Below are positions 4,896-33,459 of a stretch of DNA of 64,000 nt, piece by piece (the first letter of the stretch is position 1; each line of letters starts with the position of its first letter). A model generated the notes under the pieces. It did not search any database. It saw nothing but the letters and a program-made list of their open reading frames with translations, and was not told the origin of the DNA. The stretch is from Thermoflexus hugenholtzii JAD2 (GTDB lineage: Bacteria; Chloroflexota; Dehalococcoidia; UBA2979): positions 1 through 64,000 of the forward strand of contig CAMDNW010000003.1 of NCBI GenBank assembly GCA_945903275.1, given 5' to 3'. Position numbers and translations under genes: made by a program.

Positions 4896-6236
4896 ATGCA
4901 GAAGGCCCCCGCATCTCCTCCATCAGGCAGTCTAGGGCTGGGCCGCCGCACCGGCGATATCTTCTACGGCTGGTGGATTATCGTGGCCTCCGCGGGCATC
5001 CAGTTGCTGAATGGCGCGCTCCTCGGTCAGGCCTTTGGCGCCTACGTCGTCGTGCTGCATCAAGAGTTCAACTGGAGCAAGACGGTGCTCTCCGGCGCGT
5101 CTTCGCTGCGAGAGATGGAGTCCGGTATCGTCGGCCCGATCCAGGGCTGGTTGCTCAATCGCTTTGGCCCGCGGCTTATCTGCCAGATCGGCCTCGTCAT
5201 CTTCGCTGGCGGCTTCATCATGTTCGGCCGAGTACAGACGATCGCCGACTTCTACATCGCCTTCCTCGTCATGTCCGTCGGGGCGAGCATGAGTGGCTAC
5301 CTCACGCTGACCTATGCCGCCGTGCAGTGGTTCGAGCGTCGCCGCGCCACCGCACTTAGCCTGATGGCCACCGGTGGCGCCATCGGCGGCGTCATGGTGC
5401 GTCTCACGGTCGCATCGATGGAGCAGTTCGGCTGGCGCGAGACGACCGTATTCTCGGCGATCATCACCATCGCCATCGGCCTCCCGCTCTCATTCCTGAT
5501 CCGGTGGCGGCCAGCCGACCATGGTATGTACGTCGATGGCATCGCCCCCGCCCTCGACGCCTCCGGCCAACCCATCGAGGTTGACCCGCTGGCCTTTGGT
5601 GGCACCCGCGACTTCACGCTGCGTGAGGCGATGGCGACGCGTGCGTTCTGGTTCGTCGGCCTCGGGCACGGCTCCGCGCTCTTCGTCGTGTCGGCGCTCA
5701 ACGTCCACTTCATCTCGTACCTCGTCGAGAGCCTCGGCCTGTCGCTCGGCACGGCGACCACGATCTCATTGACGCTACCCTTCATGTTCCTCATCGGCAC
5801 GCTGATTGGCGGCCCCATCGGCGACCGCTTCTCTAAACGCTGGGTCGCCGTCGCCTGCATGATGGCGCACGCCATCGCCATCGTCGGCGTTGCCTACTCC
5901 GGCACCGTCCCTATCGTGCTGGCCTTCGCCGTATTGCATGGCCTCGCATGGGGCATCCGAGGCCCCCAGATGGCAGCGATCCGCGCGGATTACTTCGGCC
6001 GCAAGAACTTCGGCACCATCCTCGGCGTCTCCAACGTTCTGATCATCATCGGCACCATCTCTGGCCCGATCATCGCCGGGTACGTCTACGACGTGACCGG
6101 CTCCTACCGCATCGGCTTCGTCATCACCGCGGTGCTGGCAGCGGGTGGCTCGCTGTTCTTCGTCATGGCTCCTAGGCCCATGCACCCCATCGACCGCGCC
6201 CGCGCTCATGCAGCCGAGGCTGTCCCGCCCGCCTAA
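4896..6236 (+). CDS. MFS transporter (oxalate/formate antiporter-like group)
   Basis: Internal ATG at 4896 (MQKAPASPPSG...) in ORF 4794..6236; MFS topology and motifs (GGPIGDRFSKRWV). Confidence 0.85.
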   Translation: MQKAPASPPSGSLGLGRRTGDIFYGWWIIVASAGIQLLNGALLGQAFGAYVVVLHQEFNWSKTVLSGASSLREMESGIVGPIQGWLLNRFGPRLICQIGLVIFAGGFIMFGRVQTIADFYIAFLVMSVGASMSGYLTLTYAAVQWFERRRATALSLMATGGAIGGVMVRLTVASMEQFGWRETTVFSAIITIAIGLPLSFLIRWRPADHGMYVDGIAPALDASGQPIEVDPLAFGGTRDFTLREAMATRAFWFVGLGHGSALFVVSALNVHFISYLVESLGLSLGTATTISLTLPFMFLIGTLIGGPIGDRFSKRWVAVACMMAHAIAIVGVAYSGTVPIVLAFAVLHGLAWGIRGPQMAAIRADYFGRKNFGTILGVSNVLIIIGTISGPIIAGYVYDVTGSYRIGFVITAVLAAGGSLFFVMAPRPMHPIDRARAHAAEAVPPA

Positions 6237-31557: not shown

Positions 31558-32085
31558 TCATCTGTGGGTCATCCGGATAGTAGCGGCCATCACCAACCGC
31601 CCGAGTTGCCGTCGCAATACATCGAGCCACAGCGTCTCGGGCATCGAGGTGGACACGCCTTCTCCCCGAGCCCCCACGACTAACAAGCCCTGCGCCGCGA
31701 TCTGCATCGCGAGCTGTCCCGCACTCCATACCACGTACCTGCTCAACACGCGCTTAACTTCCACGTCGTCGGCCACCACTTCCACGACATCTTCGAGGGC
31801 GATCAATCCAACACCATCGACCACCCGGCGCGACCATGACTCATCCGGGACGCGCCGCTCGAAGCACACCGCGAACGCCGATGACACATTCACCAGCCCA
31901 CAGTTGAACATCACCCCCAGCGTCACCATCGGCGCTGCGAAGTCTGGCAGGCAGCGCTCCACCTCCGCGCCCAATGGCCGGTTGAGCAACAGCCCAAACA
32001 CGCCAATCGGACCGTGTATGCAGAGCAGGATCACCGTACGCGAGAAACTGGTGTCTTCTGCAATCGGGCTGGCCGCCAGCAACCG
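31558..32085 (-). CDS. YqgE/AlgH family protein (UPF0301); start uncertain, possibly TTG
   Basis: SLAGRLLAASPIAEDTSFSRTVILLCIHGPIGVFGLLLNRPLGAEVERCLP resembles AlgH N-terminus. Confidence 0.75.
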   Translation of the reverse strand, partial: RLLAASPIAEDTSFSRTVILLCIHGPIGVFGLLLNRPLGAEVERCLPDFAAPMVTLGVMFNCGLVNVSSAFAVCFERRVPDESWSRRVVDGVGLIALEDVVEVVADDVEVKRVLSRYVVWSAGQLAMQIAAQGLLVVGARGEGVSTSMPETLWLDVLRRQLGRLVMAATIRMTHR

Positions 32086-32217: not shown

Positions 32218-32430
32218 CTACCCCGCCGTGGCGCGGCGAACAGCCGGCTTTCGGGCCGCTGGCTTCTTCGCTACGGCCTTCTTCGCCGCCGGCTTTCGGG
32301 CCGCTGGCTTCTTCGCTGCGGCCTTCTTCGCTGCCGGCTTCTTCGCTGCCGGCTTCTTCGCTGCCGGCTTCTTCGCCGCCGGCTTTCGGGTTGCCGGCTT
32401 CTTCGCTGCAGTTGATCGAGTTGTCGCCAT
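32218..32430 (-). CDS. Histone H1-like Lys/Ala/Pro-rich repeat protein
   Basis: MATTRSTAAKKPATRKPAAKKPAAKKPAAKKPAAKKAAAKKPAARKPAAKKAVAKKPAARKPAVRRATAG; start ATG 32430 preceded by purine-rich RBS-like sequence. Confidence 0.8.
   Translation of the reverse strand: MATTRSTAAKKPATRKPAAKKPAAKKPAAKKPAAKKAAAKKPAARKPAAKKAVAKKPAARKPAVRRATAG
32240..32412. repeat. Degenerate 15-bp tandem repeat encoding KKPAA pentapeptides
   Basis: Repeated gccggcttcttcgct/gccggctttcgg units on + strand. Confidence 0.85.
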
Positions 32431-32639
32431 GTATCCCTCACTCTCTTCGTTTTTCGTGTCACACGACACGCACACAATTAATGCTGAAAGTGTGTTCAGC
32501 AGGTTATCAACATACCCCATATAACGCTTATATAGCGCAACTGCTCACACTTTTTTCTACTCGTGATTGTGGATAGCGTGGATATCTGCGCGTATGATCG
32601 CGCTTCGCGCGACACACATCGCGCTGCTAGTATGAAAGT

Positions 32640-32807
32640 ATGCCGACATATCGACAGACCACGCGCGTCGGCCCTTGCTGGCACTGTCGCGCCGCAACCG
32701 TGCAAGCATGCGAGGCGTGCGAAAACTTCGTATGTGAGCAGTGCGAAAAAGCGCACAATGAGTACCCGAGTCCTGAGACTATCGTGCACTCTAAGCCTGG
32801 CGGCTAA
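32640..32807 (+). CDS. 55-aa Cys/His-rich B-box-like zinc-finger microprotein (not in supplied ORF track)
   Basis: MPTYRQTTRVGPCWHCRAATVQACEACENFVCEQCEKAHNEYPSPETIVHSKPGG*; C-x2-C-x7-C-x2-C-x4-C-x2-C-x3-H-x10-H. Confidence 0.65.
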   Translation: MPTYRQTTRVGPCWHCRAATVQACEACENFVCEQCEKAHNEYPSPETIVHSKPGG

Positions 32808-32808
32808 C

Positions 32809-33459
32809 CTATCGCATCGAACTCTTCCGCTCGCGCCAAACATGCCACACCGCTGGCAACACTGACACCACTATCACCACGATCACCGTAAACACGATCG
32901 CAATCTCCGGGTTCACCGGCAGGCGCTCCAGCGTGTCACCCAGCCAGTACCCGCCCAGCGTCATTGACGTGATCCATGCCACTCCGCCGGTCACGTTGTA
33001 GAGCGAGAACTGCCGGTATGGCATCCCCACGGCCCCAGCCACCGTCGGCGCGAACGTCCGCACAAAAGCCAGAAATCTGGCTAAAAATATAGTCTTCCCA
33101 CCATGTTGGTCGTAGAACTCACGCGCCTTAAGCAGATGCCGCCGCTTGAAGAACCGCGATTCATCCCGCGCGAACAGCATGGGGCCCGCCTGCTTGCCGA
33201 TGTAGTACCCGGTCGCGTCACCTGCCACTGCCGCCACGATCAGCAGTGGAATCAAAAGCCGGATATCGAATATCCCTTTCGACGCGACTAACCCCACCGT
33301 GAGCAACAACGAGTCGCCCGGCAGGAACACACCGATGAGCAGTCCCGTCTCCGCGAAGATGATGACGAACAATCCGACGTACCCCGCCGCTACAATGAGG
33401 CTCACTAGGTCGAGATACACGGCAAGCCCTCCATGAGGCGCATATGTCGTTACGTACAT
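32809..33459 (-). CDS. DedA family membrane protein
   Basis: FVIIFAETGLLIGVFLPGDSLLLTVG, GDATGYYIGKQAG, FLARFLAFVRTFAPTVAGAVGMPYRQFSLYN. Confidence 0.92.
   Translation of the reverse strand: MYVTTYAPHGGLAVYLDLVSLIVAAGYVGLFVIIFAETGLLIGVFLPGDSLLLTVGLVASKGIFDIRLLIPLLIVAAVAGDATGYYIGKQAGPMLFARDESRFFKRRHLLKAREFYDQHGGKTIFLARFLAFVRTFAPTVAGAVGMPYRQFSLYNVTGGVAWITSMTLGGYWLGDTLERLPVNPEIAIVFTVIVVIVVSVLPAVWHVWRERKSSMR

Follow-up and report, generated by a model that had tools for sequence, protein, structure and literature searches.

A short, predicted leaderless gene for a B-box-like Cys/His microprotein in a bacterium of the class Dehalococcoidia

The window analysed here, a stretch of 64,000 nucleotides, comes from a bacterium of the Chloroflexota, class Dehalococcoidia, and carries a 55-codon open reading frame (ATG start, TAA stop) that we conclude is a real gene because it has homologues, a fixed spacing of its putative metal ligands and purifying selection on its Cys and His codons. 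A preliminary description had read this frame by hand, and that translation is identical to the computed one. The gene had also been placed divergently from a histone H1-like gene across an AT-richer region and just before dedA, and this arrangement holds: the H1-like gene starts 210 nt away on the opposite strand, the stretch in between is lower in G+C than the window (66%), and the stop codon of the convergent dedA gene lies 1 nt from the end of the microprotein gene (Table 1). The H1-like gene is small, and its product is Lys/Ala-rich with AAKKPA-type repeats.

Table 1. Position, strand and basis of the features at the microprotein locus
Feature	Position	Strand	Basis or remark
AlgH-like (DUF179) gene	31558..32082	-	Pfam DUF179
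Histone H1-like gene	32218-32430	-	Pfam HC2
A+T-rich divergent intergenic region, H1-like gene to microprotein gene	32431..32639	.	46% G+C
-10 promoter hexamer TAGTAT	32628..32633	+	6 nt before ATG
55-aa B-box-like zinc-finger microprotein gene (clade A)	32640..32807, stop included	+	translation, homologues, purifying selection
Putative zinc-ligand core codons C13, C16, C24, C27, C32, C35, H39	32676..32756	+	alignment
Codon 45 (Pro), eighth-ligand column	32772..32774	+	His there in clade B and two clade-A members
Convergent DedA/VTT-domain gene	32809..33459	-	Pfam VTT_dom; tail-to-tail also in L032, L033

The pattern C-x2-C-x7-C-x2-C-x4-C-x2-C-x3-H occurs once across the six frames of the window and in none of 100 first-order Markov windows of the same composition. 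Its spacing, with C or D at the sixth position, is identical in the 17 aligned members of the family and in an additional one, L066; C13, C16, C24, C27, C32 and H39 are invariant, C35 is replaced by Asp once (in L034), and three residues outside the ligand set (R5, T20 and V31) are invariant as well. Members are 45 to 58 residues long, with seven or eight Cys/His ligands each and a net charge between -2 and +2. Of the eight-ligand spacing originally proposed, the first seven positions are conserved and the final -x10-H is not: H50 (32787-32789) is absent from every other member, and the window protein has Pro45 in the column usually taken by the last ligand. Across members the eighth ligand is a His after 10, 5, 2 or 0 residues, a Cys after 3, or missing; H-x5-H is found in nine of nine full-length members of clade B (see below) and in L031 and L034, H-x3-C in L043 and L066, and L033 has no eighth ligand. 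Because this ligand varies, some members, that of the window among them, may have a second zinc site that is three-coordinate or recruits a different residue.

Six-frame searches found homologues in 10 of 60 related whole genomes, and a profile search found them in 13 of 44 genomes of the order (six genera), the order being sampled here by one family only, so that the conserved homologues sought as a test of the gene are present. The relatives that are named are MAGs labelled 'Chloroflexi bacterium' or 'Dehalococcoidia bacterium'. Presence across the order is patchy, partly since genomes are incomplete. Outside the order, the class sample held one clear member (G274, from another family of the class) and no clear member was found in the phylum sample. 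A scan of genomes with a narrower alignment, the initial version having been too diverse, returned four Chloroflexota loci, all of clade A. No homologue was found in phages and plasmids by tblastn or in viral contigs, PHROG held no match to the window protein and NCBIfam gave nothing usable. Weak matches in the phylum were rejected as homologues; these are a 70-residue MKCWHCEE family and membrane-fused fingers. The former (L046, L049-L054; about 70 residues, from another family of the phylum) reads MKCWHCEE..AACxFCGRFVCKDHA...VIWCGECEPQPEPISMPELY and its C-terminus is strikingly conserved. A further Cys-rich family of about 70 residues in the class (L079, L092, L093, L094, L095), with sequences like MGENVCGVCQKKEAEWKCSVCGVALCSECVREV...KVCEKC, is possibly also a stand-alone treble clef.

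In a tree, the members are split into two clades by one branch (support 94/96). Clade A (the window, L031, L032, L033, L034, L043, L056 and L066) has the signature [YF]RxT[TS]R[VA]G...C-x-[HQ]-C...T, and clade B (L035-L042, L044 and L045) mostly reads MPYRxxP..GRCxHC...T..AC..CAHxVC..C..xHDxxFxHKxY. The window's own genome carries a diverged second copy, L035, which belongs to clade B. Since the clades separate and five genomes (G000, G001, G002, G004 and G005) hold copies of both, the sequences suggest an old duplication. Codon comparison of the window with L056 gave a pN of 0.21 and a pS of 0.66, and comparison with clade-A members overall gave a pN of 0.21-0.38 and a pS of 0.66-0.75, the latter near saturation; in some other pairs pS was about equal to pN and the comparison was uninformative. 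The synonymous-site test that had been proposed for this gene thus reveals purifying selection, Cys and His codons included.

With regard to the start site, 15 of the 17 members have TANNNT 6-7 nt ahead of their start codon, where local composition would predict 0.04 such cases; these cases are not independent, the members being related, though the surrounding bases have diverged. L035 and L043 lack the box at this distance, and L066, beyond the 17, has it. There is precedent for reading this as a leaderless-gene signal: such genes have been described with TANNNT about 12 nt ahead of the start (PMC3160421). Because the distance from the -10 box to the start codon is fixed, we predict from the sequences that the microprotein mRNA is leaderless, with its 5' end at about 32640. 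Elsewhere in the window, open reading frames of at least 100 codons show a TANNNT peak at exactly 12 nt (9 cases as compared with 0-5 at other distances; the frames starting at 4896, 24413, 28094, 29148 and 43019 are examples). Given this peak, the signal is probably common in the host genome, which suggests many leaderless genes.

The preliminary description had likened the ligand pattern to a B-box or treble-clef zinc-binding pattern, and, as far as sequence pattern and predicted fold go, this reading is supported. Among Pfam families, PF00643 (zf-B_box) is the one matched most often, by 13 of 17 members at E <= 1 (best 7.4e-5). The window protein scores 16.6 bits against it (E 0.009), below the curated cut-off of 24.1 bits, and has no Pfam match at its curated cut-off. 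The nearest sequence in the PDB is PML B-box 1 (2mvw; profile E 0.0067). The B-box ligand motif is CC/HCCCCHH (PMC4506424), and all members have its first seven positions (with Asp for C35 in L034), the eighth His being present in clade B and a few members of clade A. AlphaFold models of both clades agree in showing a hairpin, a knuckle and a short helix; their pLDDT exceeds 90 in the core and is low near the C-terminus. Foldseek neighbours of the models are mostly C1, RING, MYND and other two-zinc treble clefs, all at E of at least 0.3 (best 0.34, not significant), with no solved B-box among the neighbours listed; they support the fold class only. We regard the fold as a predicted one of the binuclear treble-clef class, and infer that the microprotein very probably binds zinc and may belong among B-boxes in the strict sense.

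Fingers of this kind are widespread in the class: a zf-B_box match at E <= 0.01 occurs in 103 of 148 genomes, and in most of the examples inspected the finger caps a membrane protein at its N-terminus, some examples being other small soluble families. Prokaryotic B-boxes are known to go with membrane-protein functions (PMC4506424). The window's own genome encodes a 169-residue membrane-cap finger protein (L089), and the membrane-fused finger proteins used for comparison are 140-193 residues long with hydrophobic segments. The microprotein has no transmembrane segment, and the finger makes up most of its 55 residues. Cap fingers and the microprotein family align over 23 columns by hhalign (probability 93%).

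The neighbouring genes tie the microprotein to no single pathway or partnership. The dedA gene is tail-to-tail with it in three genera (those of the window, L032 and L033), and in L033, where dedA is at 1031-1657, their stop codons overlap in CTAG. The AlgH-like gene is found on the opposite side in the window and L032. The L031 copy adjoins murJ and a phosphotransferase gene, and the L034 copy a solute-binding-protein gene and the SRP54 gene. For several clade-B copies, a shared conserved block includes a protein of about 600 residues, probably prolyl-tRNA synthetase to judge from its N-terminus. No conserved operon partner was found among the loci compared, and a function based on an operon was rejected, as neighbours differ between genera.

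A plausible scenario, to which we give roughly even chances, is that this gene, monocistronic and leaderless, encodes a soluble binuclear treble-clef finger of B-box type that likely acts as a protein-interaction module. By analogy with the B-box, one zinc would sit between C13/C16 and C32/C35, and a second between C24/C27 on one side and H39 with the variable eighth ligand on the other. The N-terminal beta-hairpin would carry R5 and T20, with the zinc knuckle next and then, at residues 36-41, a short helix. The protein could then serve as an adaptor or small partner protein, a role we infer, and would represent a free-standing version of the finger that caps the N-terminus of the class's membrane proteins. 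More tentatively, the family may be a previously undescribed, lineage-specific group of soluble single-finger B-box proteins that was duplicated early in one Dehalococcoidia order and acts in trans.

It is also conceivable, if rather unlikely, that the same zinc finger acts by binding RNA or DNA, as a ribosome-, transcription- or nucleoid-associated protein. This could account for the invariant R5 and would be in keeping with the piggyBac-type transposase finger among the structural neighbours, with the adjoining H1-like gene and with the many treble clefs that bind nucleic acids; however, all members are close to neutral, where a nucleic-acid binder would be expected to be strongly positive, no H1-like gene was seen next to the homologues, and sequence similarity points to the B-box, usually a protein-binding finger. 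Somewhat less probable still is a zinc- or redox-responsive buffer or sensor, in which case the microprotein would use its abundant Cys to take up zinc or to sense oxidation. The density of seven or eight Cys/His ligands within so short a chain and the gene's own promoter would suit such a role, whereas the invariant R5, T20 and V31 and the confident predicted fold point to a structured surface, unlike a store of the metallothionein kind, and no zinc-uptake genes were seen among the identified neighbours. We consider it improbable that the protein is a separated soluble cap that partners the convergent DedA protein or functions at the membrane: dedA is tail-to-tail in three genera and many B-box fingers of the class cap membrane proteins, but dedA was not seen beside the L031, L034 and L056 copies or at clade-B loci, and co-transcription is ruled out for convergent genes. 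A chance, untranslated reading frame, for which the shortness speaks, is already contradicted by the conserved sequence, the constant spacing of the ligands, the purifying selection and the conserved position of the promoter box, and its probability is negligible.

We favor, then, the soluble protein-interaction finger, and regard the result as sound but modest: the kind is known, the small family is new. It illustrates that a reading frame of 55 residues read by hand can prove to be a real gene. Short leaderless genes are easily missed in high-G+C Chloroflexota, and the fixed -10 box provides an independent mark for finding them there. If the family does act in trans, it would use as a free agent the finger that, in other bacteria, is built into membrane proteins as a cap.

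The B-box domain is best known from the eukaryotic TRIM and PML proteins, and a minimal soluble B-box-like finger now joins its bacterial relatives. PML B-box 1 and PF00643 share with the microprotein the ligand order C-C-C-C-C-C-H-(H), which fits the published motif (PMC4506424). In contrast to them, the microprotein is stand-alone, bacterial, 45-58 residues long across its family, below threshold in Pfam and variable in its eighth ligand, and has no RING, coiled coil or second B-box. MYND, C1, RING and other binuclear treble clefs, the structural neighbours of our models, hold two zincs and differ in the position and type of the last ligands, a likeness at the level of fold only (E of at least 0.3). 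Membrane-fused bacterial fingers, among them the mycobacterial rhomboids with a zf-B_box match (PMC2989971), have the core C-x2-[CH] ... C-x2-C-x4-C-x2-C in common with the microprotein; they have His as second ligand and C-x2-C as last pair, followed by hydrophobic segments, whereas the microprotein family begins with C-x2-C, ends in H-x5-H in most members and has no membrane part. Alike in size and in having a single domain are the archaeal C(P)XCG proteins of Haloferax volcanii, single-domain zinc-finger micro-proteins of less than 70 residues whose deletion leads to stress, biofilm and swarming phenotypes (PMC6562870, PMC11241148).
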